NCBI GenBank assembly: GCA_030323885.1
Contig: CM059192.1
Location: 65,984,977-66,048,976, forward strand
DNA from: Branchipolynoe longqiensis
Lineage: Eukaryota > Annelida > Polychaeta > Phyllodocida > Polynoidae
DNA: 64,000 nt
Direction of reading: 5' to 3'
Each line of letters starts with the position of its first letter. The stretch's first letter is position 1. This document shows, piece by piece, positions 26,194-63,416 of this stretch. The translations under genes were made by a program, and so were the position numbers. The notes under the pieces were generated by a model. That model had not been told where the DNA came from. It worked only from the letters and a program-made list of their open reading frames with translations, and did not search any database.

Positions 26194-26750
26194 GCCCCAG
26201 TCACATGCACGTTAGTGGACGTAGTTGAACGTAGTGGAGGCTAACATAGTCGAACATGTAGTAGTTGAACATAGTCGAACGTAGTCGAACGTAGTCGAAT
26301 GTAGTCGAACGTAGTCAAACGTAGTCGAACATAGTCAAATGTAGTCGAACGTAGTCGAATGTAGTTGAAGATAGTCGAACATAGTCAAACATAGTCAAAC
26401 GTAGTCGAACGTAGTCGAACGTAGTTGAATGTACTGGCGTCCATACTTTTCCATGATGTTAACTCGGTAATAACGTGGATGAGCCATGATGTCCGATTTA
26501 AATTTTGGACATGTTCAAAAGAGTGCTACTTTAGAGCCTGAATTTGCATCCGATTTGCTAACATACTCTACCATACTTGAGCATACTCTAGCATACTCTA
26601 GCATACTCTAGCATGCTCGAGCATACTCTAGCATGCTGTAGCATACTCTCGCATACTTGGATGAAGGCCAGGTCACATAGCCGTTAGTAGACATAGGTGA
26701 ACATAGTGTAGTTGAACGTAATTGAAGGTACCGGCATCCATACTGTAACG
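26194..26750. mobile_element. left arm(s) of GTCACA-type element with 10-bp arrays
   Basis: Begins GCCCCAGTCACATGCACGTT. 'cgtagtcgaa' repeats with period 10 to about 26435, then a near-palindrome TTTTGGACATGTTCAAAA (26504-26521), then a second 10-bp array 'tagcatactc' (26575-26660). A second left end 'GGTCACATAGCCGTTAGTAG' starts at 26671. The matching inverted end is at 33145-33227. Confidence 0.7.
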
Positions 26751-26818
26751 TATTTATCCATATGTAACGTATTTATCTGTACCGTAACGTTTTAATCCAT
26801 ACCAAAACATGCCGTACC

Positions 26819-27558
26819 TTAACATATTTCAACATTTGTCTCCACATACCACATGGTATTAACATTAAGTAAGGAGTCAAGAAATCTAGAAAGAAGTATC
26901 TCAAAGGTATCAGTACCAAAGACTACAGAAGGAAGATTCCAACCCTTAGCTGCAGCAGTTTTGAACCGCTGGCAGTATGCAGCTACTGTCTCCCCTTCAT
27001 TTTGATTAATAGCCATTACAATTCACTTTAAATGTCTACATTCATCTGCCATTAGTAGAGTCGAAGCTATGACTTCTTTTATTTCCTCCCAGGATTTAGC
27101 ACCTATATGTTGAAAAGCAGTAAAGAGAACTTCATGCAATGTACCAGTTGCATTTGACAAAGCAAAGCGGATTATATCTACATCAGAAACATCAGCCAGA
27201 GTCCCAATACGTTCTATTATATCTATCCAGTTGCACATTGCTCCCTGTCCGACCCATCCAGTAAGGTTACAGACTTACTGTACGCTTTCAAAGACCTATT
27301 ACATACGTCCCGCTGTATATGCTCTACTTGCAAAAGCCCTTGTGCTTCTCTACGTTCTTCACTATCTTTTCTTACATAAGACAAACATTCTTCATTTTCT
27401 TCTCTAATAAAGTCAAGACTTTGTGCCATAAATTTACTCCATGCTTCTATCTTATCAGTTTCAGTTGTATAGTTCCCCGAATCACACTCACCCTGAAACC
27501 AATGCTGAAATTCATCACGCAACTGCTCCTCCTTGGTGGGTGTTACTGGCATTTTCAA
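26819..27558 (-). pseudogene. gag-like retroelement relic
   Basis: Three minus-strand pieces join in order. 27558-27223 is charged and probably N-terminal. 27238-27023 has a 'SWEEIKEVI' segment. 27016-26819 has QNEGETVAAYCQRFKTAAAK and 'FEILLSRFLDSL'. The pattern fits the capsid-like region of LTR-retrotransposon Gag (Q-x-E-x-E-[TS]-V-x-x-Y-x-x-R-F). A frameshift lies near 27235, and a TGA at 27023 is followed in the same frame by the next piece. No zinc knuckle, protease or reverse transcriptase follows: the sequence runs into the 26.2-26.75 kb arrays. Confidence 0.6.
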
Positions 27559-27599
27559 GCTGCTGATGTATGCAGCGGTAGAAATAATTTAAAGAATTG

Positions 27600-28059
27600 A
27601 ATCCAAGTATAGTTTTTGCCTATACGGTAGAAGAAATCGTAAAAAACTGTTGTAGTGTATTACTACACTACCCCGTCCATCCCAAGGTTAAAGCAAATAC
27701 CGAAAGTAGTTCCTTCTAAGAATAGCAGCCTTTTGTCGGAAAAGTCATCGACAAGCTAATTTTAACAAATTTTAACCTCAAAATAGATGAAGTAATATAA
27801 AATAAATATACACAACTCACCAAACAAGTCGTAGTCAATTTGTTCTATGGTTTTTAAATTAACACTGTCCTAGTAACTACCGCAGTCACTACCCATCGTA
27901 TCCGAAACTATCAAGTTGCACTAACCGTCAGTTTAGAATAGAAATTATTTTAAATACTTCATAGTCTAACTGTGGTCATAATAACTGTCATGGTTATCAG
28001 TATATAAAATACTGTACTAGTCTATGAAGTCGTCATGAACTAACTAGTATTACTAACCG
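27600..28059. other. AT-rich non-coding sequence
   Basis: Possible leader side of the gag relic. A short dyad TGTAGTGTATTACTACA lies at about 27652-27668. Nothing else recognised. Confidence 0.35.
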
Positions 28060-28839
28060 TATAGCAGGTTGGAGAGCTTACCTCGTTCGGGCTATGGTGG
28101 TTAAACTACCTCATTCGAGTACCGGTTCAATTTCCAAAGTCGAATTTCATATAGGATTATGGTGCAGTTTCACAAATATGGTTGTGGAACACTGAGTTTT
28201 AGGAGGTTTTCATATTCGAATACATCACTAGAAAGGAAAACATTGTATCTAATTTCCTGAATATTCAAAGGACATTTAGTTGGGACCGGATTGAGTAAAT
28301 TAACAGTGAATATTAGGAAATAATTCAGTAGTTAAAACACATGTCTACAGGACAGAACTGCCCATGACAGTACTGTGTTGGTATAGCCATTAATCCCAAA
28401 CAATAGAGGAACCTCCAGTCAACCATGGGGGTATATGCTGGTCTGTGGCCCACTCATATACTTCCACTTGCCACTGGGGGAGGTCCTGTGGGGACTGTTG
28501 TACATCATTTAGATATATTTTTTGCATACCAATATATATATATATATGCATAAGAAATAATTCACTGTGATTATCCATCTGATGCATAATCACCCCAAAT
28601 ATGGCTTATCTTGCTGGTACAACATTAAGAAAAACCTACCTTAAATATTATTGTATTTGATTTATTTTATTGTTGGTTATCACTTTTTATTTCTATTCAC
28701 AGGAGGTCAGTAAGCTATGCTCATAAATATCACTGTAAGTATGCATCTGATGCATAATCCCCACAAATATGGCATTTCTTGCTGTTACAGCAACATTAAC
28801 ATTCAACTTACCCTGTATATTATTGCATTTATATTTCAT

Positions 28840-29440
28840 TTATTTCATATACATTCATATACATTAATATACATTCATATACATTCATATACATACATAT
28901 ACGCATACAAACGTACATAAACATACACAAACACTTTTTATATCTACCTACTATGGACCAAATGATGTAACTACCATAGTCATGAGTCTGAATTGAATGA
29001 ATGAATATACATATGCATACATATACATACATCCTGGTGCTGGGAGGCCGGTATTCCCGGAACGGATAGGCTGCCATCTCCACTCCCACACCCCTGGAAA
29101 CCCAAACCCCCTATGCCTATTATAAATGTTATATATATACATACATACATATACCTACATATACATACATATACATACATATACATACATACACATATAT
29201 ACATATGCATACATATACATACATATACATACATATACATACATTACATATACATACATATACATACATATACATACATATACATACATATATGTTAACA
29301 TACATATATACATACATATATATATATACATATATATACATATATACATACATATACATACACACATATACAGATACATACATACACATCTATATATACA
29401 TATGCAGACATATATACATGACTCTACACATATGCATATA
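28840..29440. repeat. (ACATAT)n / (ATACAT)n microsatellites
   Basis: Long imperfect hexamer runs, interrupted at 28930-29130 by unique sequence. The open frames on both strands are artefacts. Confidence 0.9.
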
Positions 29441-30079
29441 AATACATATTGTATTTAGAGATGACTGCATCACATATCTTAGAGTGGGCCTCCATTTGTC
29501 ACTACTAAGTTAATCCATATGTAGTCTGTGAAACTATCAGACTTATTGCAACAATGCAAGGGGCCTAAGCTCTGACACTTTCACACTCAGATTTTAACCA
29601 AACACTGCCATTAGCCTAAATAACATTCCATTTATATTTAATTTATTGTTGATTATGCATGTACATGTACACATACTTTTAAAGCTATATGTATATATGC
29701 ATATATGTACATACATATGTATGTATTATATATAATATAAAAATAATATTGCAATATCAGGTGAAGAATAACTTACCAGTGTTCCTAAATGTAAGGATGA
29801 CTGTGCCAGATCCTTCACAATGGTAATCCATTTGCAAGTAACAAGTTGACTGTTGTGTAGTGTGTGCCTTCAGAAATATGTGTGTGCAGTGCACTGTGGC
29901 ACACACCCTTATAAACCAAATCCAATCCACTCTCACACCTATTCAAAGGGCATAAGCTCTGACCCATTCACACTCAGTGAGCTCAGCTGTCAGTGGAGGT
30001 GCAGCCCAGAGAACCATTGGCAACCTGAGGTGTGAAAGCACATACATGTATATGTAAATCTAAAAATAATGCGAATAAT

Positions 30080-30385
30080 GATTAAAATAATACGGTAATA
30101 ATAATGAGAAGAATAATGATAATAACAATGATAATAATGATAATAACGATGATAATAATAACAAATATATAATGATGAAAATGGCAATAATACCCAACCT
30201 GACTTTACCCGACCTGACTTTACCCGACTCTACTTTACCCGACTCTCCTTTGCCCGACTCTCCTTTGCCCAACCTGACTTTACCGGACATGACTTTACCG
30301 GACCCAACTTTACCGGACCCGACTAAACCAGACCCAACTTTACCGGACCCGACTTTACCGGATGCGACTTTACCGGTTTAACCAA
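30080..30385. repeat. (AAT/GAT)n followed by GACTTTACCC(G) repeat
   Basis: 30080-30180 is a trinucleotide-like AAT/GAT tract. 30196-30385 repeats a ~14-bp unit 'acccgacctgactttaccc' with CCCGAC/ACCGGAC variants. Confidence 0.85.
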
Positions 30386-30773
30386 CTTTTTTATATGATA
30401 AATGGTAGTATTTTGCGGGCCGCCCAAAAGAGTTTGGATTAACTGATCATTTGGTTTAACCGAGCTTGGTTTAACGGGGTTGTATTGTATCCATATATAA
30501 ACATATATTTGCTGAGTGGTTGTCATTTTTATTTGATTTATTTTACTTTTGTTTATCACTTTTTACTTCTAATCAAATATGTGGGATGTGGTGAAGGGAG
30601 GCTCGGAACTGGGAAGCTGAGAGGCTATACATATCGTTTTAAATCTATGAAGTGTTTATTAATATATGTATATGTGTGTACATGTATATGTGTATATATG
30701 TATATATGCTGTCACAATAATAAAATAAATCAAATACAATAATATTTAAGGTAGGTTTTTCTTATTTAACGAG

Positions 30774-31315
30774 ACGGAGACAGAGGTATTATATAACGGT
30801 TATTTACTTCTGATCGGAAAGGGCTCACATACGATACAAGGTCAATCTGATACATAATAACAGGTAGGTTCAATAAGTCAGATAGATACATATAGTCAAG
30901 TATGATATCAGACATGCAGAACATTGGTCAGTTATAATGGTACACGATTGGTAACCGGCAGTCCAGAGCATTCAAAGCTTCCCCAGTCTGTGTGAGTCAA
31001 GTGGTTAAGGACCGGGACTCGAACTCTTAACCCTATCGTTACTCTCCATTTAACGGTGTGGGTGGGTGGGTGAAGAAAACGAGAGGGGTGCTTTGATGAC
31101 GGCGGCTGCGGCGGTTCTGATCGAATTTGGAACGGTCTGGTGGTCGCGTGACGCAGTAACTGCCCGTGGCGCCATCTGGAGGAACCCCAGGAACCAAGTT
31201 ATGCTTGTAGCATATCAGGTTTTCTGCCAGATGGCGCCACTGCACCGGTGTAAGTCAGTTTGTGGTGTTCCTGTCTCTGCCGTAAATTACCAAATGTTAC
31301 GCGTAACATCCACAA
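30774..31315. mobile_element. ~0.54-kb insertion in the right TIR of the 3.8-kb element
   Basis: The left TIR reads 'ggtttttctta|atgttgta' (reverse complement of 28606-28645). The right TIR has the same words separated by this block, so the left arm is the empty site. The block contains GGCGCCATCTGG and its near-complement CCAGATGGCGCC (31169-31181, 31228-31241) and a GTTACGCGTAAC palindrome at its right end. Class unknown. Confidence 0.7.
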
Positions 31316-31894
31316 TGTTGTACAAGCATCTTTGTGGTGATTATGCAGCAGGTGCATAATCACAGTGAATTATTTCTTATGCATATATATATATATATAT
31401 TGGTATGCAAAAAATATATCTAAATGATATACACCATTCCCCACAGGACCTCCCCCAGTGGCAAGTGGAAGTATATGAGTGGGCCACAGACCAGCATATA
31501 CCCCTATTGTTGGCTGGCGGTTCCTCTATTGTTTGGGATTAATGGCTATACCAACACAGTTATAACATGGGCAGTTCTGGCCTGTAGCCATGTGTTGTAA
31601 CTACTGAATTATTTCCTAATATTCACTGTTAATTTACTCAATCCGGTCCCAACTAAATGTCCAATGAATATCCAGGAAATTAGATATACTTTTTGGCTTT
31701 CTACTGATGTATTCCAAGATGTAAACTTCCCAAAACTCAGTTTGATATAACCATATTTTTGAACCTCCTAACTAATCCTATATAAAATTCGACCTTGGAA
31801 ATTGAACCTGGGGTCGAATGAAGTATTTAACCACCATAGCCCGATCGAGGTAAGCTATCCAACCTGTATAGTGTCAATAACCGTCATGGTCAAA

Positions 31895-32240
31895 TCTGTG
31901 GTTGTGTAGGCAGGCTATAGTGAAATCAATGCAGGCAAAGAAAAAGAAAGAGTATAAGGAGTGAAAGAAGAGAGAGAGTCAAGCGCTCTGGGTTATTATT
32001 TATATGGTACATTGATCCAGTTTAGAGCATCACCCCACTCCATTCTCCCAATGAGAAACAAGCATTTCTAGCTCTACCAATAGGGATCCAGCATTCCTGG
32101 TCCCCATGGTTACCAGTGATCTGCCCACCACCACCAAGCTGTGTGGGTCCCCTAGCCATCACCTGCCTTGAGCCTGAGTGTGGTGATCCTGTCTAGCAGA
32201 GGGGGGAGGGTGTGTGTGTGTAGGGGCTCTGAGTGCCCCT
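31895..32240. repeat. repeat D, truncated copy
   Basis: 'gtggttgtgtaggcaggcta', 'tgaaatcaatgcaggcaaag' and 'ccaatgagaaacaagc' match 16758-17269. The right part is replaced by the element at 32248. Confidence 0.5.
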
Positions 32241-32247
32241 TATACCC

Positions 32248-32959
32248 CTGTCACACTACGACGTAATGAGCGAACGTGACCCTAACGTGGTGATATTTCG
32301 TCATTACGTTGATGTACGTTGGATTACGTTATGATGACGTCATAATGACGTTAGACTGACGTCGAGCTACGTCATATTACGTCGTGTTACGTCGAGTTAC
32401 GTCGAGATTTTGGACATGTTCAAAAATTTCGACGTAGCATGAACGTAAGGGTTTACGTTCGCCGTACGTTCTGTTCACGTTCAGTGAACGTCAATGACGT
32501 TAAACGGACGTTAGGTAAACGTTCCTCACTACGTTCCACTACGTTCCACTCGTTGACCCACATTAAAGCCAGTGGAAACGTCCATGCGGCGTGATGGGAA
32601 AGTCAGGAGAACGTCAGGAGAACGTCAGGAGAACGTCAGGAGAACGTCAGGAGAACGTCAGGAGAACGTCAGGAGAACGTCAGGAGAACGTGCATTCAAC
32701 GTACGTTCAACGTCTCACTCCTAGCTAACGTCATGTAACGTTCTTCTGGCGATGGAATAACGTTCATAACGTTCCGGCAGCGTCATTACGTTGACCTCTC
32801 TCGTTGAATGACGGTATCACTACGCTTTACCGACGTTACTCTCTCGTCCACTACGCTGCATCCACGTTCAACTTGTGCCCAAATTTGCATACTACGCCGA
32901 GAAGTTCAACGTTCTTCACGTTCTCCCTACGTTGACGTCGTTACGTCGTAGTGTGACAG
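32248..32959. mobile_element. 712-bp foldback saturated with ACGT (GTCACA group)
   Basis: Bases 32248-32266 (CTGTCACACTACGACGTAA) are a perfect 19-bp inverted repeat of 32941-32959. The interior contains about 48 ACGT tetramers by hand count, where about three are expected, mostly as AACGTT/TACGTC-type words. Eight or so tandem 11-bp units 'acgtcaggaga' lie at 32601-32690. The near-palindrome TTTTGGACATGTTCAAAA (32408-32425) is shared with 26504-26521. No coding capacity. Confidence 0.85.
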
Positions 32960-33144
32960 CCCCATAACACACTGTCTTACTATCACCACAATGTCTATTT
33001 ACCTATCAGTATCAAGCAAGCACCACCAGCAACTACATAAACACATCTATGCACCTGGCCGTGTATGCCTGTTTCACCAATAGAACATTTGCATTCCCCC
33101 ACCAATGCATCATTATCAGAATATTTTACAATAGTTTAACATAC

Positions 33145-33227
33145 TTACACCATGTTTGACCCATGTTAGCCTCCACCATGTTCACCTATGTTCAACTACG
33201 TCCACTAATGTGTATGTGACCGTGGCA
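33145..33227. mobile_element. right end matching the 26194 left arm
   Basis: The reverse complement begins GCCACGGTCACATACACATT and continues AGTGGACGTAGTTGAACAT and GTGGAGGCTAACATG, closely following 26194-26255. This suggests both ends belong to one ~7-kb unit later filled with other insertions. Confidence 0.65.
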
Positions 33228-33483
33228 TCACCCAGCACTGACTTAGTAGGTTGTACGCATTTATCTCACAATGTCTCCAACACCTCGCATTGCCGGTGGT
33301 CACGCATCTAAACACTGCCAATGTACAAAGATCGGTGATTGGATTGATTGATTGATTGATCGGCGGTGGTTGCTTGACGCCGTGTCGGCAGCATATGCCA
33401 TATCCACGGGTGATTGGGCGATAACAGGAGTTCTCATGATGATATTTTGTTAGTCACATTGCTGGCAATTTGGTAGTAAGAGT

Positions 33484-34010
33484 GATCACCCCATCAGCTC
33501 CCCCACTCTACCCCCCACCCCTCCTCCACCCCTCCCACACCCCCACTCACCTCCCACCCCTCTCACATTCCTCCTACACCTCTCCCAGAATCCATCCCTC
33601 GCACCTCTCACACACACCCAAAACTCTCCCACTCCCCTCCCACTCCCCCCCCCCATTCCCCTCCCACTCCCCTCCCACTCCCCCCCACTCCCCTCCCACT
33701 CCCCTCCCACTCCCCTCCCACTCCCCTCCCACTCCCCTCCCACTCCCCTCCCACTCCCCTCCCACTCCCCTCCCACTCCCCTCCCACTCCCCTCCCACTC
33801 CCCTCCCACTCCCCTCCCACTCCCCTCCCACTCCCCTCCCACTCCCCTCCCACTCCCCTCCAACGACCCATCCCTTGCTCCTCCGACTCCCCTCTCACTC
33901 CTCCTAAAACCCTCCAACACCCTTCCGACACCCCTCCCACTCGCCTCCCGTACCCCTCCCCCTACCCCATCCCCCACCCCTCCCACACATCGCTCACACA
34001 ACTCCCCCAC
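33484..34010. repeat. 11-bp pyrimidine minisatellite (CACTCCCCTCC)n
   Basis: Almost perfect 11-bp repeats from about 33640 to 33860 with diverged edges. Near-total C/T strand asymmetry. The 145-174 codon frames are artefacts. Confidence 0.95.
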
Positions 34011-34019
34011 CCAGGGGTC

Positions 34020-34710: not shown

Positions 34711-34721
34711 CATCCTAGCGA

Positions 34722-40845: not shown

Positions 40846-42260
40846 CATCATCATCATCATGCTGTTGGTCGTGATGCGACAAAGACTGCTTTCATTACTT
40901 GTCTGCCGCTCTCCATTTAGCTCTCTGCTGTGAGAGTTGTGTCCATTAGTCGGTCTTAATGTATCTCAACTTCAGGTATCCTTGAACCAGAGACGATGGT
41001 GCCCTCTCTTTCTGTAACCAGAAGACAGTTGACAATAGAGGATCTGCTTTGGTAGCCTGTCTGATGACATCCTCATGAGGTGTCCAGTCCACCAGAGATT
41101 CTTTTTGATCAGAAGATCTTCCATACAGGGCAGCCCCGTCTGTTCCAGTATTTCCTTATTTGTCACTTTGTCCTTCCAGGTTAGCCTCATGATTGAATGC
41201 AGATGTCGCATCATGAAGGCATGCAGCTTTTTCACCTGTCGTCTGTACACTCTCCAGGCCTCGGCTCCTTATAGTAGGGTGGATAGCACGATTGCATGGT
41301 AGATCTTGCCTTTGACCCAGATGGACACATGGTGGTTGTTCCAGAGTCTCTGGCTTAGTCGGCTGAAAGATGCACTAGCCTAGGCCATCCTCCTCTGTAT
41401 TTCAGCATCAATATGTCCATCACTTGATATAGTGCTTCCGAGGTAGGTGAATTCCGGAACAGAGTTCAGCTTGTTTCCATCAACCATGATCCCCTCCTCT
41501 CGGGTTCTTGTAGAGTTGGGTTGGTATAGCACCTCCGTCTTCTTGATGTTAATCTTTAGTCCAAACTTCTTTGATGCATCGGAGAAAGCATCCACTATTT
41601 TCTGGATCTCTTCAGCAGAGTGGTCAACCAGTACACTGTCATCTGCGAATAGCAGCTCTCTCACCAGTATCCGAGTAGTCTTGGTCTTCGCTCTGAAGTG
41701 TGAGACATTGGATAGGTCAGCGCTCTGTCTGGACTGTATATAGATGCCATCCCTCATGTCTTGGAAAGCCTTGTCGAGCATTGCTGATAGGAAGATGGAG
41801 AAGAGCGTGGGGGCCAGTACACAACCTTGCTTGACCCCATTGGTAACCCCAAACGATTCCGAGACTTCCCCTCCACATTTCATGAAAGCTGCCTGCAAAA
41901 GTGTTGAAGTGCTGCTGACTTTTGCAAGTTACCAGCAGCACTCTCTCAGGGAGCAAATAGAGGTTTCACACCGGCAAGAACATGTCAAGAAAGGCGCAAA
42001 ACTATTTGTCCCTGCAGTGGCTGGTCGAGAGATGTTGGGAGTTCCATACATCAACCGTCCTTAATGCTGCCACAGTGACATGGTTTTCTGTTTAGGGTTT
42101 GCTCCCTTAGCCTTCGGTTCTGTCAAGAACCTGTACCACAAGGCACTGGTTTACAACTCGGCAGGGCAGGGGCATCAAACTCCCTGAGGTATTGCTATAC
42201 CTGCAATACCTGCATATGCAGTATTAGGCATTGCTATACCTGCAATACCTGCATACACGG
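40846..42260 (-). mobile_element. non-LTR retrotransposon (copy L2), 5'-truncated
   Basis: Minus orientation. The 3' end is the (CAT)n tail at 40846-40860 next to 'gacaaagactgctttcatta'. Protein remains are at 40972-41898. The 5' part (41899-42260) holds a non-RT segment also present in copy L4. The whole unit interrupts a 12-bp minisatellite. Confidence 0.8.
40972..41898 (-). pseudogene. LINE reverse transcriptase fragment with stops
   Basis: One frame, broken by stops near 41380 and 41265. Visible RT blocks: NGVKQGCVLAP (residues 20-30 of the first piece), the catalytic LLFADD (FADD at about 41638-41649), and GLKINIKKTEVL. After the stops come the C-terminal blocks RRQVKKLHAFMMRHLHSIMR and RWTGHLMRM-like (here WWTGHLMRM). 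The RT N-terminus and endonuclease are absent. Clade not determined. Confidence 0.8.
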
Positions 42261-42580
42261 TTATTATTAATGTGATAAGTAATGTGATTATTAATGTGAT
42301 TATTAATGTGATTATTAATGTGATCATTAATGTGATTATTAATGCGATTATTGTGAGATTATTAATATGAGTATTAATGGGAGTATTAATGTGATTATTA
42401 AAGTGAGTATTAATGTGATTATTAATGTCATTATTAATGTCATTATTAATGTGATTATTAATGTGATCATTAATGTGATTATTAATGACATTATTAATGG
42501 CATTACTATTGGCATTATTATGTTATCAATGGCATTATTCATGCCATTATTACTGCTATTATTGACATACACTCACCATT
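42261..42580. repeat. ATTAATGTGATT minisatellite, right half
   Basis: Same 12-bp unit as 40660-40845, with GTCATT/GAGTAT variants toward 42500. Confidence 0.9.
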
Positions 42581-42594
42581 ATAATTATTCCTGA

Positions 42595-42880
42595 CCTATA
42601 GCAATAATAATACAACAAATAATATAAAGTGAAAAAGAACTTACCAATGTTACTAAAGAGTAAGCGTATGGATGACTGCATGACATTGGTGCGCAGTAAT
42701 CCTTGCAAAGTGAGTCCCATGAGAGATTTTGGTGAGTCTAGTTGGCAGGTGAGCGAGTGGTGGCTGCCCTCTCCCTCCTCCCCGCCTCAGCGATGGGGTG
42801 CGGTAGGGGGTAGGAGAGGGGGTGGAGTGACAGCACAGCTTTGCGGCCCTCTGATGCCCGCAATAATACCGACTTAGCAT
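42595..42880. repeat. segment shared with the 3.8-kb element interior
   Basis: 'accaatgttactaaagagta' and 'ggatgactgcatgaca' resemble 29775-29830. A purine-rich GGGTAGGAGAGGGGG patch follows near 42805. Confidence 0.4.
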
Positions 42881-42884
42881 CCTG

Positions 42885-43050
42885 CTCATATATACATATA
42901 TATATATATACATAATTATATAGACATGTACACATATATAGTTACATGTATGCATATAAATGTATATGCATGCATGTATATATGTATATGCACACATACA
43001 TGTACATGTATATGTATTTATATGTATTTATATGTATTTATATGTATGTA
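42885..43050. repeat. (TATA/TGCATA)n microsatellite
   Basis: AT- and TGTA-rich run directly upstream of LINE copy L3. Confidence 0.85.
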
Positions 43051-43054
43051 TATG

Positions 43055-43462
43055 TACAGATGGCAGGTGAAAAAGCTGCATGCCTTCATGATGCGACATC
43101 TGCGTTCAATCATGAGGCTAACCTGGAAGGACAAAGTGACAAATAAGGAAATACTCGAACGGATGAGGCTGCCCTCTATGGAAAATCTTCTGATCAAAAA
43201 GAATCTCCGGTGGACTGGACACCTCATGAGGATGTCATCAGACAGGCTACCAAAGCAGATCCTCTATTCTCAACTGTCTTCTGGCTACAGTCTCCGGTTC
43301 AGGGATACCGTCAAGAGAAACCTGAAGCTGAGAGACATTAAGACCGACTCATGGACGCAACTCTCACAGCAGAGAGCTAAATGGAGAGCGGCAGTCAAGT
43401 AATGAAAGCAGTCTTTGTCGCATCGCGACTGACAGCATGATGATGATGATGATGATGATATG
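43055..43462 (+). mobile_element. LINE 3' fragment (copy L3)
   Basis: Encodes RWQVKKLHAFMMRHLRSIMR through RAKWRAAVK to TAA at 43400-43402, then the shared 3' UTR and a (GAT)n tail. Its 5' junction lies in the microsatellite, so an upstream start in the same frame is artefactual. Confidence 0.85.
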
Positions 43463-43889
43463 TATATACGTATATACATGCTACATGTGTATAAATATAA
43501 ATATAAATATACATATACATATGAAGACTTCAGGCACAAAACCACGTTGCTGCCAATCCAAAAATGGAGATAAACATTGGAATCAAACCTTCAATAAGTT
43601 AGTTTTTTTTATATTCCTACTCATTTGTTCATTGCTCCATAACCATGTCATCATATGAAAAGTAAAAATAGTGAGAATTACAATTATTTTCAGGTAGAAA
43701 TCTTTGATTTAATCTACATTTTTGGATTGGCGTTTACGTAGTTTTGCGCCTGAACTGTATATACATATATACATATTACATATGAACTTATGCATATATC
43801 TGTCTATGTAGATGCCTATGCATATACATAATTATATGCATACATATATACATTTGCAGACTTATATACATCACTATATATATATGAAT

Positions 43890-44740
43890 ACATACTGTAT
43901 TTAGAGATGACTGCATGACATATTGTAGAGTGGTCCTCCATTTGTCACTGATGAGTTAACCCATGTGTAGTCTGTGGTATGCAGGTATAGCAATACCTCA
44001 GGGAGTTTAACGCCCCTGCCCTGCAGAGTTGTAAACCACTGCCTTGTGGTACAGGTTCTTGACAGAACCGAAGGCTAAGGGAGCAAACCCTAAACAGAAA
44101 ACCATGTCACTGTGGCAGCATTAAGGGCGGTTGATGTATGGAACTCCCAACATCTTCCGACCAGTCACTGCAGGGACAAATAGTTTTGCGCCTGTCTTGA
44201 CATGTTCTTGCCGGTGTGAAACCTCTATTTGCTCCCAGAGAGAGTGCCGCTGGTAACTTGCAAAAGCCAGCAGAACTTCAACACTTTTGCAGGCAGCTTT
44301 CATGAAATGTAGCAGCAGTCAAGTAATGAAAGCAGTCTTTGTCGCATCGCGACCGACAGCACGATGATGATGAGTCTGTTTCACTCTCAGACATATTGCA
44401 AGGGGCCTAAGCTCTGACACTTTAATGCTCAGATTTTAACCAAAAACTACCAAGGAAAGCTTTCACACCTCAGGTTGCCAATGGTGCTCTTGGTTGCACA
44501 TCCACTGACAGCTGAGCTCATGCCCCTTGGAATAGGTGTGAGACTGAGAATGGATTGGATTTGGTATATCAGGCTCAGAGCCACAGTGCACTGCAAACAC
44601 AGAACTCTGAATGCACCGAAAACACATGGGTCAACTTATTATTTGAAAATGTAGAACTACTCTGCAGCATCTGATGCAGTCACCCATGCATTTAGTAACT
44701 CTGGTAAGTTCTTCACTTTATCTTGCGATAATACTATGCA
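43890..44740. repeat. dispersed segment shared with 29450-30040, holding LINE copy L4
   Basis: 43890-43975 plus 44373-44455 match 29455-29640. 44455-44700 is the inverse of 29775-30040 ('ctcaggttgccaatgg', 'gctgagctcatgccc', 'ggattggatttggt'). Confidence 0.7.
43976..44372 (+). mobile_element. internally deleted LINE (copy L4) with AGTCTGT duplication
   Basis: The 5' part matches the inverse of 41885-42245. It then jumps at 'tttcatgaaatgt|agcagtc' straight to the 3' UTR and GATGATGA tail, skipping the whole RT. AGTCTGT flanks it (43969-43975 and 44373-44379). The unoccupied paralogous site is at 29523-29529. Confidence 0.85.
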
Positions 44741-48130: not shown

Positions 48131-48307
48131 CACCAACATTTCACTACAGACCCAGATGGGGTTGCCAATTGAGTTGAGTGCTTGCCTCCTGTTTTGGCAG
48201 GTCATGGGATTCAAACCCATGGGTTTGAAGCCTGGTCGAGTCAAACCAATTAATTAAAAATGTATACTCATTGCTACTTCGCCTCGTGTTCAGCATTGCT
48301 AGTAAAC

Positions 48308-49020
48308 CCTCAGTCACACATAGCTGGACGAGCCCCGGATTTTGAGCCGGACCACCCACGGACCAACGGCCCGGACTGTCCCAGACCGCCATGGATAAAA
48401 TCACTGTTTTCGTCGATTTTTGCCTCTCAGTCACACCTTCCCGGACGAGCCCCGGACCAAAGGCCCGAATGCCCCAGACCTCCCCAGACTGCCCCCGGAA
48501 CGGCCCTGGACGAGCCCGGACTGAGCCGGACCGCCCCCTGACTAACCCGGACAAGGCCGGACCGCCCCCAGACTGACCCGAACCACCCCCGGACTATCCC
48601 GGATCACCCCCAGACAGTCCAGGAGTGGTCCGTGGCTAGGCCGGGGGTACTTCTGGATAGTCCGGGGATGGTCCAGGTCAAACCGTGGCTCAAAATGACC
48701 CCGTACCACCTCTGGTCCACCCCGGACCACCCCCAAAGTACCCGGACCACCCCCGGACCACCCCCGGACCACTCCCGGACCACCCCGGATCATGCTGGAT
48801 TGAGCCCGGATCGCAAAATCCCCTGGACCGCCCCAGATGTTTTAAACATTTTAAAACATCCGGGGCTGAGCTCGGACGGCGCCGGACGAGCCACAGATCA
48901 GGCCGGATCAGGGGGGGGTCACCATGGACGAGCCACGGACGAGCCACGGATTGCCCCGGATCGCCCCGGATGGCAGTCCAGGGCTCGTCCGGCCCCTGAT
49001 CCGGGTATGTGTGACTGGGG
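48308..49020. mobile_element. 713-bp GTCACA foldback filled with CCGGAC repeats
   Basis: Left CCCTCAGTCACACATAGCTG; right complement CCCCAGTCACACATACCCGG. A second inward copy of the left end, CTCAGTCACACCTTCCCGG, starts at 48426. 'cggacgagcccc' and 'ccggaccaccc' words fill the interior. Palindrome GATGTTTTAA-acatt-TTAAAACATC at 48836-48860. Open frames here are artefacts of the repeats. Confidence 0.85.
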
Positions 49021-49087
49021 ATTAATGCGCAAGGAGTGCTAGAATGAAGAAAACCAATTGTCTGCAATTGACAATTCCCCAGCTTAA

Positions 49088-55090: not shown

Positions 55091-55179
55091 GATCTCATTC
55101 GTGCAATTTCATAATGCCCTTCGATAGGTCCCTGGCTAAATAGCGTAGACAGTATCAATGTCAACAGTTTTATGGGTGA

Positions 55180-55400: not shown

Positions 55401-55494
55401 AGCTGATGGATGATTCACAAGCAGGCCTTCATTATTCATACCAAATGACTCATATAGCCATCAAGCTTTCGAAGGACATTAACAACCCTGTGTA

Positions 55495-56330
55495 AAAATA
55501 TACGGATTTTCGGTTCGGAATTATATATTGGCAGAGAGCATTATTATTCTTAGGCGACGGAGTGGGGACAAGGTTATGCAATCTAAAAGCAATGGTGCCC
55601 CACTCACAATATGACATGATATAAGCTATGTGAAATATATGTTATACATGATGCCTGAGATTAATGAAGAGATGTTCCTTGGAGAAAAGGACATTTTTAA
55701 TATGGATCTATTTGTAACTGTCTGCAACTACCTGTTACCAGGGTACCGGTGGGCAAGCACACCAGCCTAATCTGCGTACATACATAGACCTGCAGCTGGG
55801 TTGAGTGAGAGCCACCCCTACTGGGGGGTGTCACCCTCCCAGGCTGTGGGGGGTACCTGATTGGCTGGCTGTGGGATGCCCAGTCACCTGCACTCCTTTG
55901 GCCCTCTGACCACACTAGCCTCACTTTGATTAATTATTCATGAGACTGCTCCAGACACACTGGAGAGATCACTCTACTCCTGGCTCTTGACTGAGACACA
56001 CCTACTCTTGAGCAGGGACCCCAGACTCTGTCTGATGCTACCAACATTCATATATTGAGTGCAGCAACCAAGAGACTCTGGTTCAATGGGCTGTAGGCAC
56101 TGATTCATAGACAGGCTAAAGAGGTAATGAGATTCTGTGTGGACAGAAGGTAATGGGTGAGGGTGATAGGTCACTAGTAGGTGAACAGGAGTTGATGCCA
56201 ATAAAGTACAACATCTTCACTGTCAATCTTTGTGACTTGTCTTCCCTTTCTTCCTTATGAGTTTGTTTAAGGGTTTGTTTAAGGGAGGTATCAGAGGTGA
56301 AATGAAGGGGGAGAGTTTATGGTATTCTCT
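55495..56330. repeat. dispersed repeat J, second copy with a ~310-bp insertion
   Basis: Matches 52050-52494 and 53042-53120. 55790-56098 is extra relative to the first copy and includes 'actggggggtgtcaccctcc'. Confidence 0.7.
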
Positions 56331-56520
56331 GGTGTTCATGACGGCCGAGCATACAGTAATATTATACCCAGTTATATATTCATGGCCGAGCGAAAATTAC
56401 TTTTTGTGAAGTGGGGTTCATTATATGACCACAAAATGTAGAACTGTATGGTTTATACACAAAAGACAACACATCCCAGCCAGGCCTGCACTCTACCAAT
56501 ATACCCTGCCAGCTGGAAAG

Positions 56521-56833
56521 TACCCGACTAGAGTGGTTTCACATTCTGCCGACAGATGTCACTATCTTAACTGGAGGAGTGTAATACATGAAGAGAGCGG
56601 CGGTGAAATTCCAGAAGGAAAATACGATATAGTCGTCTTTTTTAAAAGATATATTAAAAGGGTAAGAGCTTGACTCCTGTTGCAATATGAATATCTGAAT
56701 ATAACCAAGCATTTTATTATTTTTCCAGGCATTCATTACATAGATATAGCATGTGAAATCATAGGCAGTCTGCGAATACACCCGACTCGAGTGGTTACAG
56801 AATCTACCGACAGATGTCACTAGCTAAACTGGT
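56521..56833. repeat. ~55-bp direct repeat pair
   Basis: 'cccgactagagtggtttcac'...'gacagatgtcactatcttaa' at 56523-56573 recurs at 56781-56832 as 'cccgactcgagtggttacag'...'gacagatgtcactagctaaa'. They enclose 205 bp. Confidence 0.75.
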
Positions 56834-56904
56834 GGGGGTCTATTCGGCCCTGCGTCCGGTCTGTTGCAAATGATGGGAATGTTTTATGCTTAGAGGGGGT
56901 TTCT

Positions 56905-57550
56905 AAACCATCATTCCACCATTCCACTATTCCACCATTATGCCATTCCACCATTCCACTATTCCACCATTCCGCCATTCCGCCATTCCGCCATTCCGCC
57001 ATTCCGCCATTCCACCATTCTGCCATTCCACCATTCCACCATTCCACCATTCCGCCATTCCGCCATTCCGCCATTCCACCATTCTGCCATTCCACCATTC
57101 CACCATTCCGCCATTCCGCCATTCCACCATTCTGCCATTCCACCATTCCACCATTCCGCCATTCCGCCATTCCGCCATTCCGCCATTCCGCCATTCCACC
57201 ATTCTGCCATTCCACCATTCCACCATTCCGCCATTCCGCCATTCCGCCATTCCGCCATTCCGCCATTCCACCATTCCACAATTCCGCCATTCCGCCATTC
57301 CGCCATTCCACCATTCTGCCATTCCACCATTCCACCATTCCACCATTCCGCCATTCCACCATTTCACCATTCCACCATTCCACCATTCCGCCATTCCACC
57401 ATTCCGCCATTTCACCATTCCGCAATTCCGCCATTCCACCATTCCGCCATTCCACCATTCCAACATTCCACCATTCCACCATTCCACCATTCCGCCATTC
57501 CACCATTCCACCATTCTGCCATTCCACCATTCCGCCATTCCTTCGACCAT
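56905..57550. repeat. 9-bp minisatellite (CCATTCCGC/CCATTCCAC)n
   Basis: About 70 units with TCT/CAC/CGC variants in a higher-order pattern. Period 9 keeps frames open on both strands (131-236 codons), an artefact. Confidence 0.95.
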
Positions 57551-57589
57551 TCCAAAACTGACATCCTAACCATTAGTCTACTCGGTTAT

Positions 57590-57915
57590 CTGGTGGAGCC
57601 AGGTTTCCCGTGCGGAAGGTCACAAGTTCGAATCCCGGCCGAGTCAAACCGATGACGTACACAAGTGTGACTTGTCACAGACGCACACGAGAACCGATGA
57701 GACCTAGCCTGGCGCTCAGCATTACTAGGACAGGAGGAATGGTTGGCTCAGTGTCAGGATAATGTGACTGTGGGATATCAGGTCATGGTGCTGGCGGCTT
57801 GGTCTCCCAATGGGGCATCATTATAAAGTTGCCATGAGTGTGTACTATCACAAGTCGGTACCGTCCTGATATGACTTTAGATGTTGCTAGGACATACGGC
57901 AAAAAACAAACAAAC
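57590..57915 (+). repeat. SINE-A copy
   Basis: 'cgtgcggaaggtcacaagtt', B box 'gttcgaatcccggccg', body and tail 'gatgttgctaggacatacgg' with CAAACAAAC. Confidence 0.8.
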
Positions 57916-57985
57916 TAGCTCTCTGAGTCTGATACAATTAACCTACTCATGCTTAACAGTGTATATAACATTTCACTTACGCTAC

Positions 57986-58451
57986 GGTCACAAATGTGTT
58001 ACGGCGTGCTTGCGGCGACCATAGCTCGCAGCATGGGCCAGACCGTACAGTGACCATACGGTGGGTTATGGTCACTGCACGGTGACCATATGGTTGTTTG
58101 CTCGCCGCAATTGGTTGCAGTTATTTTAAGTCGAAGTTATCTTAACTTTGGAAAATCGCAACGCTGCAGGCCACAATCCTGGCAATCCAGACTCCACAAC
58201 ACTGTATGATCACCTTTGTTGACATCAATGAAAAGGTTGTAAAATGACTATCAATATGCTACAAAATTCATGTTTGTGTGATAAATATTAAGAAAGTTTT
58301 GACTTTCTTTGTATATTAAATACGTGTATAAATTCAACACAAACCATACAATTTGTGAAGAGATAATAAACTGCAGGCCGAAACGCCGTAACATTTGCAT
58401 AAACCACAAGCCACACCACAGCACCATCCGGCACGCGCAGCATTTGTGACC
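57986..58451. mobile_element. 466-bp GTCACA foldback
   Basis: Ends GGTCACAAATG and CATTTGTGACC. Subterminal 'gtgttacggcgtgc' recurs inverted as 'cgccgtaacatttgc' (58384). 'ggtcac'/'gtgacc' words repeat at 58050-58095. The middle is AT-rich. No coding capacity. Confidence 0.75.
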
Positions 58452-58559
58452 TAAGCATTAGGGAGGCGGGTCATTGTACGTCACTATGCTCTTCCCACTA
58501 TAAATGTAACTCTCATACTTCAATTTTTTAATATAAAACAGGATATATAGAAATATATT

Positions 58560-58740
58560 ACAGAATTTCATTGTGTTATATGCTGCAAATTGTGTATCCA
58601 ACAGTTATTGTATACCTTACTCTATATACCTTTTGTGTAAATACTCCTGCATTGAAAAATGGCTGGAAGACCCATGCTTCGGCACTGACAAAACACTTAT
58701 TCAGCAGAATAAACATATTTACCACAAAAAAACCTAAAAT
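58560..58740 (+). repeat. dispersed repeat G
   Basis: 'aaaatggctggaagacccat' and 'cagcagaataaacatattta', as at 3230 and 23985. Confidence 0.55.
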
Positions 58741-59087
58741 AATCCAGATAATGCACTTATAGTACACACTCAGAGAAGGTTCAACACTATGCAGCACCCA
58801 TCGCGTACAGAATCCTGGTCATGGCACCAGTGTTGCAAGCTGGTGTTTTTGCAAATGAAGGCAACAATGCCCCTAGAATGGGACATTTGAACCCATGCTT
58901 AAGCCATTCTGGGACTAGCGCGTAACCATTAACCAAGTTCGGTTCCAAAGATCAATTAACCTACTTCTGCTCTCTTGTTTTGTGACATTTCATCTGGATA
59001 GAGTGCACCTCATTACACTACACATATATTATTCCCGAAAATCACAATACGATTTTGTGAAAGGAACTATATTCTTCAGTCCAGTGT

Positions 59088-59425
59088 CCCAGGTGCGGTG
59101 GCCTAATTGGTAGAGTACGGGCCTCTCGTGCGGAAGGTCCGGAGTTTGGCTCCCGGTCGAGTCAAACCAATGACTTTAAAATTGATACTTATCACTTCCT
59201 AGCCTGGCACTTGGGTATTAATAGGATAGGGCAAGGACTGGTTAGCTCAGTGTCAGAATAATGTAACTGCGGGATATCGGATCATGGTTCTGGCAGCCTA
59301 ATTTCCCAGTGGGGCAGCACAATAATGTCATCATGAGTGTGCGCTGTCACAAGTTAATACCCATCCTGACATGACCGTAGATGTTGCCAGGACGTGAAAA
59401 TCAAACAACCAATCAATCAGTCCAG
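59088..59425 (+). repeat. SINE-A, full length
   Basis: Head CCAGGTGCGGTGGCCTAATT, body and tail 'gatgttgccaggacgtgaaa' ending in CAACCAATCAATCA. Confidence 0.85.
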
Positions 59426-59467
59426 TGTGACAGTTCATCACTAGGTGTGATTACATATCCCTCTTAA

Positions 59468-59806
59468 AGCTGCATAGTCCGATGAAGCATTACATTTTCA
59501 ACACCAAAGCAATTATCTAGATTTGTGTATACTTAGATACTTATGTACTTAGTAACGGCTTTGTTGGTACATAGAAGGAAATACTGAGTCAATTTAATAT
59601 AACCTGTTACTGCAGAAACCGAAGGCATCCGAGTTGTGGTGTGCTTTCCAAAATTACGCTGACTTGTTTGCACTTCAAATATCACAAAAGTTAGTCAATT
59701 AAAATAAAAGTTACTCCGAATGAAAGTAAGGTAGATTATCGCAATCAATGTCATATTTTTATCTCAGAAACATTACAGCAACTTAAACCCATCGGGCTAT
59801 GCAACT
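59468..59806. mobile_element. 339-bp MITE family E, TTAA duplication
   Basis: TIR AGCTGCATAGTCCGATG and CATCGGGCTATGCAACT, flanked by TTAA at 59464-59467 and 59807-59810. Confidence 0.85.
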
Positions 59807-59881
59807 TTAAGTGAACAAAAGTAGAGTAAATCCACCGCTGCGGCGCCACCAGTTAGTTTTGTATACACTATATAGTTATTG

Positions 59882-60160
59882 CCGGTGTCACAGTTTCCGT
59901 GGTCTGCCAGTTTCCACAGTCCGCATCAATTCTGCGCATGCGTCAAAATCGAACAGCATCATCTCTAACCTTAAAAATTTAATATAATGTTTTTGGTAAA
60001 GATGTTTTCTATCTGTATACCAAGCAATTTGTTTCTAGGTGGTGTGGTTTTAGAGATATTTCACTTTTTCTGTATGAAGATTGCTCAAGGCCATATTGAC
60101 AATGCATTTGAGTGTATGCGGACCGCGGAAACTGGCGCACGGCGGAAACTGTGACACCGG
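59882..60160. mobile_element. 279-bp GTCACA foldback with duplicated TIR motif
   Basis: 59882-59899 (CCGGTGTCACAGTTTCCG) is perfectly inverted at 60143-60160. Each arm has a second inner copy of the motif: CCAGTTTCCAC on the left, CGCGGAAACTGG on the right. Centre unique and AT-rich. Confidence 0.9.
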
Positions 60161-60335
60161 ACATCGAACTGATCGTAAGTACAATGTAGCATTATTTATA
60201 CTTGTGTTATAAATTATACATGATATATGTATAGTAAAGGTATTAATACTCAGCAAATAAAACAAGTGGCTGATCGTTGTTTGGCTTCAGAATTATTGAA
60301 TAAGCTTATAAAGGGCTTATTTAATTTTGAGTGCA

Positions 60336-60590
60336 CTCCCCCCCCCCCTCATTCCCGATCCCACAACACACATAGACACACACCACACAGACACACACAT
60401 ACATGCACATGCATGCACATACACACGCGCAAAACTACACACATATACATACACATACATGCAGACACACACAGTCACACACCCAGACACACACATGCAC
60501 AGCCAGGCACACACAGACACACACAGACACATATGCACACACAGACACACACATACACACACAGACAGACACAGATCACGGGCCCTTCCG
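60336..60590. repeat. poly-C and (ACAC)n/(CAGACA)n microsatellite
   Basis: A run of about 11 C near 60338, then CA-rich repeats to 60580. Confidence 0.9.
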
Positions 60591-60599
60591 AATCGCTAC

Positions 60600-61105
60600 A
60601 ATTAGCTCACCATTAACACTAACTCCGCCGACCTTACATATACACAGAGTGCTGCCGGGTAAAGGCCGTGCTATATCGCTGTTGTGTAATTACAATATAC
60701 AACGCTTTTAATGGTGCAGTCGTGAGGACTGAACGCAGCGAATATGGACCTCCAGTGACTGATGTGAGAACTGGGGACGGTGGGTGGGGAATAGAGAGAG
60801 CTAGTTAAGCGCCCCTGAGTTATAATCATCCCATTGTGTAAAGTGGATGTTGTTTTAGCATTAATGGCGCCATATTAATGCGGACTGGGCGCCCCATAGA
60901 ATGACGTATATGAACCTCATGAATATTCATACAGAGGGTATTAGCGTTATGCAGCAACGGAGTAAAGGCTAAAAACCATTACGCTAATAAGATATTCATC
61001 CACAGTGAATGGCAGGGACTAGATTCTATATAGCGATAGATGGTGTAGAGATTTATTAATTATTACATTAATTTGCTATAATGCTTGATTAAAGCTGCAT
61101 AGTTT
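60600..61105. other. non-coding sequence
   Basis: No gene recognised. A fragment of the MITE-E end ('TTAAAGCTGCATAG') lies at 61091-61104. Confidence 0.4.
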
Positions 61106-61114
61106 ATTTTGTTT

Positions 61115-61410
61115 GTTGTTGTTGTCATTTTATATCCTAGCAACATTTAAGGTCATATCTGGATGGGTACAGACTTGTGAGAGTGCTCACTGATGGTGGT
61201 TTTACGGTGCCGCCCCACTGGGAAATCAGGCCACCCGCACCATGACCACCCAATATCCCACTCAGTCACATTATCCTGACACTGTGCTAACCAGTCCTTG
61301 CCTTATCCTATTAATGCTGAGCACCAGGCCAGGAAGTGACACATATCAAATTATAAGTCATTGGTTTGACTCAACCAGGAATTGAACTCCCGACTTTCCA
61401 CATAGGAGTT
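61115..61410 (-). repeat. SINE-A, inverted
   Basis: From 'gtcattttatatcctagcaa' to 'gaactcccgactttccac'. The head is truncated. Confidence 0.8.
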
Positions 61411-61789
61411 GTTCTTAAAGTTTGTCAGTATTTTGATGGATGACAAACTGGGATTACAAGGCGCCCGAGACATCCTGATATCGAGACTGAGAGAAGCCCG
61501 GCAAATCAATAGTCGATAAACTTTCAGGTCACTGGCTAACAAACGGTCCTATAAATCTACCACGAGTCGCAGCCTGTCTATGATGGACAGTACAAACAAC
61601 TGCGATAAGAAGGAACACGTAAAGTAAATTCAACAATTTCAATTCAGCTCGCGGAAAAGAGCCATCTGTTCGCGGGATTGTTGTCATGGCAATGTGTTCA
61701 AAGAACATCACAAGGAATCTGCAGATACCGAATGTGTTTACGTGAAGCCCAAGACGACAATGTCCAGTCACGAGTACACTTGGATAAAT

Positions 61790-62122
61790 GGTTGGTTGGT
61801 TGCTGGAGTTTTACGTCCTGGTAACATCTAATGTAATATCAGGACGGGTATCATCTTGTGACAGTGCATACTCAAGGCGACTTTATAGTGGTGCCCCATT
61901 GGGAGATCATGCCGCCAGCACCATTACCTGATACCGTACTCAGTCACATTATCCTGACATGGAGTCAATCGGCCTTGCCCTAACCTATTAATGCTGAGTG
62001 CCAGGCTAGGAAGCGACAAGTATCAATTTTAAAGTCATTGGTTTGAGCCGACCGGGAATCGAACTCCCGACCTTCCGCACACAAGGCACGCGCTCTACCG
62101 AGTAGGCCTCCGCGCCCGGTTA
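61790..62122 (-). repeat. SINE-A, full length, inverted
   Basis: Tail 'gagttttacgtcctggtaac', head 'cgaactcccgaccttccgc' to 'cctccgcgcccggt' with both A and B boxes. Confidence 0.85.
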
Positions 62123-62347
62123 CTTGCATACAAGATTCACCAAGGGTACCCAGCTTAGGGGTGAATGACAGCCATGTTTAAATCTGAGCAAAAAAAACCC
62201 TGCCTTGGTATGAATCAAATTTGAACAAGCTTGGACTCGCTGAATGTTTATCTATATTGGCATAGTGTTGAGGAATTGGGAGAGATTGCAAACACAACAT
62301 ATTTTAAAACCAAGATGGCAGCCTCTGAATGCTCTAGATTTTTGTTG

Positions 62348-62630
62348 AATATTTATACTGCCTATTATGGATAATAGTCCCCATTAGACAGTTTGTCGAT
62401 AGAAAGCCTGAGTCTACACTTTTACCGACCCAAGGGATTTTTAACCTCCCACACCAGATAGACATGGTATGAGAGCAACTGGCATTTGATGACGCTGTAA
62501 GTTATCCACAGCGGTGGAAATCCAAATTGGCACAGGTAGGGGGCATGGGGAATCGAACCACTGACCTCCAGATTAGGAGTCTGACCTAGAAAAAAGTCAG
62601 ACACTCTAACCACTCCGCCAGAGAGAACAC
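62348..62630 (-). repeat. SINE-C copy
   Basis: Complete from 'atttatactgcctattatgg' to 'ccactccgccagagagaac', with a small internal gap near 62372. Confidence 0.85.
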
Positions 62631-62857
62631 CACAAACGGTCCTAGAATGCGCAATCTATTAATCTACATGATTTCATCAAATCTTCACTCGGAAAGTAGC
62701 GGGTTATGATCGATAAGTGTGTGAACAATATATATTTAGCATATTATATTACAAATTCATGTGGTTATTTCCATAACCTCGGATTCCAACATCTTTTCTA
62801 TAGGGGTGTCTAGCCCTAGTCCTAGCAGCCCTGTCACAGAGTCAGTGGTGTGGGAGA

Positions 62858-63416
62858 AATGGTGCTGTCACATTACAATGCTTCCCGCCGGCGCGCCGCC
62901 AACGCGAACAAAAGTTGAGAAACGTCAAACTTTTCGGCGTGGTGGGAACAAGTTTGATGTCAGCGTAACTTGTTGGTAGTGTGCGGCCGATGTTGTGATA
63001 ACGTATATCGACGCATGAGAAAAAAAAAAAAGTTTGGCTCACCGTTCTGTTATGACCTTAGATGTTGCTAGGATGTAAAACAACAACAAACAAACAAAGC
63101 AACAGTTTGGCGCAATGAGCCTCACATGCGCATGGCATGTGCCTAGCATTCGCATAACGTTATTCCAGCGCATTTAACGTATCTCGACGCGCCCCTAACG
63201 TCACCATGACGTTGGCACCCGCGTGTCGTCGCACGTCGAAAGTTTTGTGCAAGCACAAAACTTTTGACGTGCGATGCCATGCGCCACCTAACACTGCCAT
63301 ATATCAATGTATACCAACGTGCGCATAATGCTTCCTGACGTATCCCGAGGTAGCGCAAACAAATCACACACATCGATGCACGTTGGTGAGAAGTGTCGTT
63401 ATGTGACAGCACCATT
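62858..63416. mobile_element. 559-bp GTCACA foldback with central hairpin
   Basis: 62858-62873 (AATGGTGCTGTCACAT) is inverted at 63401-63416. 'cataatgcttcctgacg' (63324) echoes the left subterminal 'ttacaatgcttcccgcc'. A strong hairpin, AAAGTTTTGTGC-AAGC-ACAAAACTTTT, lies at about 63239-63263. A SINE-A tail (63040-63105) is embedded. ACGT and CGACG words are frequent. Confidence 0.8.

Follow-up and report, generated by a model that had tools for sequence, protein, structure and literature searches.

The polynoid annelid Branchipolynoe longqiensis carries, in a 64,000-nucleotide stretch of its genome (the window; positions 65984977-66048976 of contig CM059192.1 in a 1.85-Gb assembly), six units that a first-pass annotation had grouped as foldback elements ending in GTCACA, and that we call U1 to U6. 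We conclude that these units, with the doubtful exception of U4, are probably non-autonomous DNA transposons, likely moved by a transposase of the PIF/Harbinger type, and that the arrays of 10-11-bp words filling most of their interiors are putative docking sites for a partner protein. When their ends are aligned on the hexamer, the trinucleotide TNA is found exactly 7 nt outside GTCACA. Such elements appear to be abundant in the genome: 14 were counted in 280 kb sampled outside the window, which by extrapolation corresponds very roughly to 90,000 in 1.85 Gb. Rules were derived from 264 kb of searched sequence (the training data), including a 200-kb grid sample, and were applied to a fresh set of 80 kb from 20 further places, fetched after the rules were set. 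L-numbers designate loci sampled elsewhere in the genome.

GTCACA is paired in inverted repeats

The inverted pairing of GTCACA is real, and chance pairing is excluded. In the window, masking of dispersed and tandem repeats left 37 complex inverted repeats (11 or more exact bases, span of 150-1500 bp), and 5 of these contained the hexamer. The same count averaged 0.03 and never exceeded 2 in 1153 shuffled sequences, which kept the dinucleotide make-up of each 500-bp block, and any hexamer with two or more G/C was seen at most 3 times. The five short units were recovered as exact inverted repeats with GTCACA, at 32248-32959 (19 bp), 48311-49017 (12 bp), 57986-58451 (11 bp), 59882-60160 (18 bp) and 62858-63416 (16 bp), and the inner words described earlier, for most units, as repeats of the unit's own terminal motif were indeed present. 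The sequences at 26194 and 33222 are likewise inverted-similar, as first noted (local-alignment score of 71 versus 25 for the best of 100 shuffles), and TCA on both flanks of 7035 bp indicates that the pair delimits one 7-kb element.

Other counts weighed against the original observation. The hexamer alone is not enriched genome-wide (930,411 forward and 926,769 reverse sites, compared with 928,535 and 927,036 for the backward pattern), and about 20 of the 68 GTCACA sites of the window, counted by eye, lie inside a short interspersed nuclear element (SINE). Unmasked samples contained GTCACA in 3 of 257 inverted repeats (200-kb grid sample) and 3 of 84 (80-kb sample), and it was not the commonest inverted hexamer in either. 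All six GTCACA inverted repeats of the two unmasked samples nonetheless belong to the same kind of element as the units of the window. As the hexamer is not enriched in the genome, its pairing in inverted repeats is the special feature. Finally, the repeat at 57986-58451 taken alone did not beat shuffles by local alignment (23 versus a maximum of 26); it is the flanks of its genome copies, not its own inverted repeat, that identify it as a real element. The SINE, which by eye is of the tRNA type with an internal GTCACA, is found at 24940-25520 and at about 20 other places, and is the leading source of the hexamer within the window.

The ends lie 7 bp outside the hexamer and adjoin TNA

The first-pass annotation had placed the ends at or near GTCACA; the true ends are 7 bp further out, next to TNA. 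U1 (32240..32967 with its flanks) is an element at 32243-32964, ending in TACCCCTGTCACAC and TGGGGCTGTCACAC and flanked by TTA (32240-32242) and TAA (32965-32967). U2 (48303..49025) is an element at 48306-49022 flanked by TAA on both sides, with a second, inner GTCACA starting at 48430. U3 (57977..58460), which belongs to a high-copy family, occupies 57980-58457 between two TTA. U5 (62857..63417) occupies 62860-63414, with AAA on the left and TTA on the right, and U6 (26190..33230) is a 7035-bp element (26193-33227) between two TCA. U6 contains U1 and other repeats nested within it, and a second U6-type end at 26662..26710 (plus strand; TGA, 7 nt, GTCACA). U4 (59880..60162) is an inverted repeat with GTCACA and CAGTTTCC doublets.

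TNA was present at offset 7 in 15 of 18 ends, from U1-U6 and from three grid-sample units chosen by an inverted-repeat scan of the 200 kb before the TNA rule was seen. The misses were both U4 ends and the left end of U5. Offset 7 was chosen on the basis of these very data; the next best offset had 4 of 24 ends. Alignment of the flanks, proposed earlier as a way to find a common target duplication, revealed matching 3-bp flanks at offset 7 in 5 of 11 elements by script, and in 6 when L009 was placed in register (its right end, with the hexamer GTTACA, had been mis-registered by the script, and has TTA at offset 7); at other offsets there were at most 2 matches. Some of these elements are not independent of the features discussed here, those of L009 and L016 having been found through the palindrome described below and that of L017 through a pattern containing TWA.

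The U3 family allowed a larger comparison. A first look gave 1974 candidate relatives, of which 40 were scored, including the window copy; the other 39, on many contigs, were 83-87% identical to it and most were nearly full length. Flanks were analyzed in 21 copies, i.e. the window copy and 20 of these 39 (L024-L043), with a mean pairwise identity of 0.87. TNA was at offset 7 in 37 of 42 ends. Matching TWA flanked 12 of the 21 copies, four had TWA on both sides with an unlike middle base, and five had other flanks, whereas 3-bp matches elsewhere were found in 0 or 1 of 21. Matching flanks of the kind left by the 3-bp TWA duplication of PIF/Harbinger elements are thus seen in 12 of 21 U3 copies and in 6 of 11 pairs from other units, counting the TCA of U6; overall, about half to two thirds of paired elements have matching 3-bp flanks. 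Separately, eight paired elements (four of these U3 copies, U1, L014, L016 and L045) had TTA as one flank and TAA as the second, a combination that seems commoner than decay alone would produce.

The end consensus is TAA followed by AGGCCCTGTCACAC, the first base from the outside being mostly A or T. A profile of 21 ends, which contains the TNA columns, reads TAAAGGCCCTGTCACACTACGACGTA. It gave 35 matches of at least 11 bits in the training sequence versus 17 in reversed sequence (best 17.2), and 15 versus 3 (best 12.1) in the fresh 80 kb, where the three paired elements were flanked by TTA/TTA, TAA/TTA and ATA/TAA. At L057:3559-3600 a U5-type end is tandemly doubled (TAATGGTGCTGTCACATGATGGTGCTGTCACATTAC), an end duplication caught at one site.

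Duplications of 2, 4, 5, 6 and 8 bp were rejected in the 11 elements, those of 2 and 4 bp also in the 21 U3 copies. The 2-bp matches in 17 of 21 U3 copies at offset 4 and in 12 of 21 at offset 6 are explained by GC and AT dinucleotides within the conserved ends, which are self-complementary. At offsets 0-13, 4-bp matches were found in 0 of 21 U3 copies and in at most 2 of 11 elements, against piggyBac (TTAA), and 8-bp matches in 0 of 11 elements, against hAT. Spy, for which no duplication and insertion in AAATTT are expected, does not fit TNA at 37 of 42 U3 ends with matching flanks. Ginger elements end in TGTNR; they were excluded by the A or G that precedes GTCACA in several units.

Most units share more than the hexamer

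GTCACA had been described as the only sequence shared by the units. We found that most, though not all, also share the longer end consensus, a spaced palindrome, a second landmark and a 10-11-bp phasing, so that sharing of a short end only is not supported. The palindrome, TTTTGGACATGTTCAAAA, lies at 32408..32425 in U1 (165 bp from the left end), at 26503..26520 in U6 (310 bp from the left end) and, with one mismatch, at 63243..63260 in U5 (154 bp from the right end). Searched as TTTTGNNCATGNNCAAAA with at most one mismatch, it had 10 matches in 264 kb, 8 of them inside elements (two of which were found through it). Its near edge is separated from one end of the element by 145-175 bp in U1, U5, L004, L009, L014, L016 and L017 (two mismatches); in L002 the distance, 166 bp, is to an inner end. 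All four matches in the fresh 80 kb (at most two mismatches) were in elements, 154-165 bp from an end, and the palindrome was present in 4 of 8 fresh element segments. The second landmark, CGCCGARAAGTTYRACG, is located 53-74 bp from the other end in U1 (CGCCGAGAAGTTCAACG, 32895..32911, plus strand, near the right end), U5 (CGCCGAAAAGTTTGACG, 62923..62939, minus strand, near the left end), L004, L014 and L009. The interiors of U1, U5, U6 and sampled elements are partly linked by local similarity above controls (12 shuffles per pair).

Most interiors carry phased words that differ between relatives

Among 12 element segments (U6 contributing two), 10 had their best autocorrelation at a lag of 10 or 11 bp, compared with 24 among 399 background segments. 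Recurrence of 4-mers at this spacing exceeded 500 shuffles in 10 of the 12, the exceptions being U3 and U4; no shuffle was as high in nine segments, and 6 of 500 were in U5. The excess at 10/11 bp recurred in all 8 fresh segments, where no more than 10 of 500 shuffles were as high, with a best lag of 11 in 6 of 8; borders were guessed in the one-ended later segments (L051, the first of L055, the third of L057, L059), and the right end of segment L057 1076-2445 is atypical, this segment also containing a strong repeat of 12 bp. Arrays of such words are present in U1, U6 and U2: 8.5 copies of the 11-bp GAACGTCAGGA in U1 (32598..32691), 17.3 copies of the 10-bp GTAGTCGAAC and 10 copies of the 10-bp CTAGCATACT in U6 (26261..26433 and 26558..26657), and 4.4 copies of a 21-bp unit made of two 10-11-bp words in U2 (48698..48789), all on the plus strand. 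The ratio of observed to expected CpG was 0.76-1.79 in elements versus a background median of 0.59; its percentile was high in most elements, only the 73rd in U2 and near the 90th in U3, U4 and L016. In 8 of 11 elements, the exceptions being U3, U4 and L009, the bases just inside GTCACA recurred within the interior of the same element more than in shuffles, no more than 6 of 300 of which were as high.

Close relatives of U1 make the turnover of these arrays visible, since different arrays stand between similar ends. The element at L055 587-1243 can be aligned over the whole length of U1, with 593 identical positions, 59 mismatches and 75 gap columns, and has 3.3 copies of GAACGTCAGGA where U1, 91% identical, has 8.5. 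That at L057 113-883 has 185 identities with U1 over the initial 216 bp of the latter, and carries in its middle 19.5 copies of an 11-bp word other than that of U1. Two 11-bp words are repeated in another element, L045 697-1193: GGCGCCATGTC, in 5.5 copies, and CCAGGGCGGCG, in 6.7. The earlier interpretation, one very short end recognized while the adjoining sequence changes by amplification, therefore stands as regards a single end layout over unlike interiors and turnover by tandem amplification, and fails as regards the shortness of the shared end.

Assignment to a transposon class

The first-pass annotation did not match the units to a named superfamily. Two features, TWA flanks of 3 bp and the presence of GTCACA in the ends of mPing and Pong, point to PIF/Harbinger, and it is from these that we infer the type of catalysis. 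Within elements of this kind, the only reading frame was one of 60 amino acids at L022 887-1069, in an element ending at L022 1615; we presume a resemblance to the N-terminus of HARBI1. About 3 kb away, apparently in another element, L023:3232-3942 (minus strand) encodes a DDE_Tnp_4 transposase (PF13359, E 2.8e-28), preceded by a frame (L023:4295-4543, minus strand) that we take to resemble the N-terminus of this transposase. The two N-terminal frames do not align with each other. U6 was rejected as an autonomous copy: its frames are repeats and presumably gag-like sequences, and three had no credible Pfam match.

Several findings weigh against the assignment or against a binding role of the words. 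The search for an autonomous element with the same ends found no intact transposase joined to them in the window or the samples; a single enzyme moving all units is a conjecture. The 60-residue frame of L022 had no Pfam match and no database relative, and no TNA-7-GTCASA ends were found in 7.2 kb around the L023 transposase gene. Flanks were unlike in 9 of 21 U3 copies. U3 and U4 have no palindrome, no phasing and no interior similarity to the others; U4 moreover lacks TNA at offset 7 on either side, making its membership doubtful. As to the words, only 7 of 12 segments had pairs of CpG at 10/11 bp in excess of shuffles (no more than 10 of 500 as high), the excess of an element's own words over other elements was more than threefold in U1, U2, L002 and L016 only, and the words of U6 are denser in U1 than in U6.

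Proposed mechanism and alternative explanations

Several unrelated families, including those of U3 and U4, could have come to share GTCACA through convergence or chance. The interiors of these two are unlike the others, that of U2 is only weakly similar (12 shuffles per pair), and U4 is without TNA at offset 7. Yet U3 keeps the 7-nt offset and the 3-bp flanks, and the shuffles exclude chance pairing, so that we regard this explanation as improbable. A little less probable still is an insertion without duplication, by an enzyme that, like that of Spy, would favour palindromic targets bearing TWA on either side and insert the element between the two TWA. This would account for the eight pairs noted above, in which the middle base alone differs, but 18 of 26 pairs of the TNA type match (one-sided binomial probability of about 0.04 versus one half) and U6 has TCA twice. 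An origin as foldback minisatellites, through local amplification and with no transposition, would agree with the tandem words and inverted arms that fill most units. It is disfavoured, and in our opinion very improbable: U3 is found at 40 scored places on many contigs, U1 has relatives on other contigs, and the end layout and flank repeats are those of inserted elements.

If the units are indeed transposons, a PIF/Harbinger DDE transposase would read the end made of TNA, 7 nt and GTCACA, and move the element by cut-and-paste. Word arrays would grow and be replaced by slippage or unequal exchange, and those that are in phase and match the end-proximal words would stay mobile, because a Myb-like partner would bind them along one helix face. 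The phased words would thus be predicted binding sites of an evolving partner protein, by analogy with the Myb-like ORF1 protein of PIF/Harbinger and with the THAP sites of Galileo. Differing words, each of about one helix turn, would split one kind of transposon into separately recognized families.

The main rival to this partner-binding role is that the units are PIF/Harbinger-type miniature inverted-repeat transposable elements (MITEs) whose words have no binding role, neutral slippage generating them, with the one-turn period arising from slippage or repair on wrapped DNA. The abundance of U3, which is unphased, agrees with it, as does a word present 8.5 times in one element and 3.3 times in a relative that is 91% identical, and MITEs bearing tandem repeats are known in Xenopus, to judge from a title among the references of PMC2872659. 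Against it, phasing was seen in 18 of 20 segments with different words, compared with that best lag in 24 of 399 background segments, and end-proximal words match the element's own interior in 8 of 11. We consider it possible but not likely.

Extending the partner-binding role, we tentatively suggest that the elements might carry two codes, i.e. a frozen catalytic end (TNA, 7 nt, GTCACA and the spaced palindrome) and a fast-changing specificity code of one word per turn. If so, tandem rewriting of the words, which usually contain a CpG, would spin off families that no longer cross-mobilize, with a logic like that of the evolving target of a zinc-finger array. This bears on the question of how transposon ends diverge while the enzyme stays constant: a single end geometry is retained by many families within one genome, whose interior words are swapped at a spacing of about one turn. 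Relatives that are close yet carry different arrays preserve intermediate stages, so that the distinction between fixed and evolvable end recognition becomes testable.

Other features of the window

U6 contains a large foldback at 28104-31828, with 444-bp arms that are 89% complementary. Inverted arms of 331 bp (96%) are found at 41875-44310, adjoining arms of 238 and 136 bp. A MITE-like inverted unit, TTAAAGCTGCATAGTCCGATG, occupies 59469-59816, similar pieces being recognizable by eye at 49081 and 61083. An open frame of 545 amino acids at 20447-22084 (minus strand) matches NXPE4_C (E 2.4e-8) and has one relative, at 31%.

Comparison with known systems

Among the papers listed by literature searches, none describes these elements, as judged from titles and the openings of abstracts. 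One of the closest parallels is with mPing, Ping and Pong, rice PIF/Harbinger elements and Tourist-like MITEs. Passages of PMC2836001 give primer ends for mPing/Pong, AAGGCCAGTCACAATGGGG, that carry GTCACA, and describe an ORF1 protein with a Myb-like domain that binds the ends; the PIF/Harbinger duplication is given as TWA in a passage of PMC4482050. The rice elements are thus similar to ours in having GTCACA just inside the end and a duplication of the TWA type. As to the terminal inverted repeat (TIR), GTCACA is common to both but at another distance from the flank, 5 nt in the rice elements versus 7 nt here. We know of no phased word arrays in mPing, Ping or Pong.

For the NuwaII group of PHIS (PIF/Harbinger) transposons, section 8 of PMC4482050 reports a TNA duplication, preceded by C and followed by G, and TIRs that mostly start with GG. 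The TNA duplication is shared, with TCA, TTA and TAA in our elements. Our elements show this context weakly, with C before TNA at 16 of 42 U3 ends, and usually begin with A or T instead of GG.

In Galileo, the tandem repeats of the long ends hold many sites for the DNA-binding domain of the transposase, with a proposed role in specificity, according to the abstract of PMC3688188. This element, of the P superfamily and with foldback-like ends, resembles ours by its repeated sites within the ends, but belongs to another superfamily and uses a THAP domain. Its duplication is of 7 bp, and no flanks of this type were found in our elements. The CMITEs of Acropora comprise families with different TIRs and one conserved internal region (PMC2872659, in part), which recalls the palindrome shared by our elements. 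They differ by their size of about 100 bp, their TTAA duplications and their piggyBac-like character, and phased words are not described in the passages concerned. Altogether, the end layout and the interiors likely represent a variant of PIF/Harbinger-type non-autonomous elements, most of them with phased word arrays.

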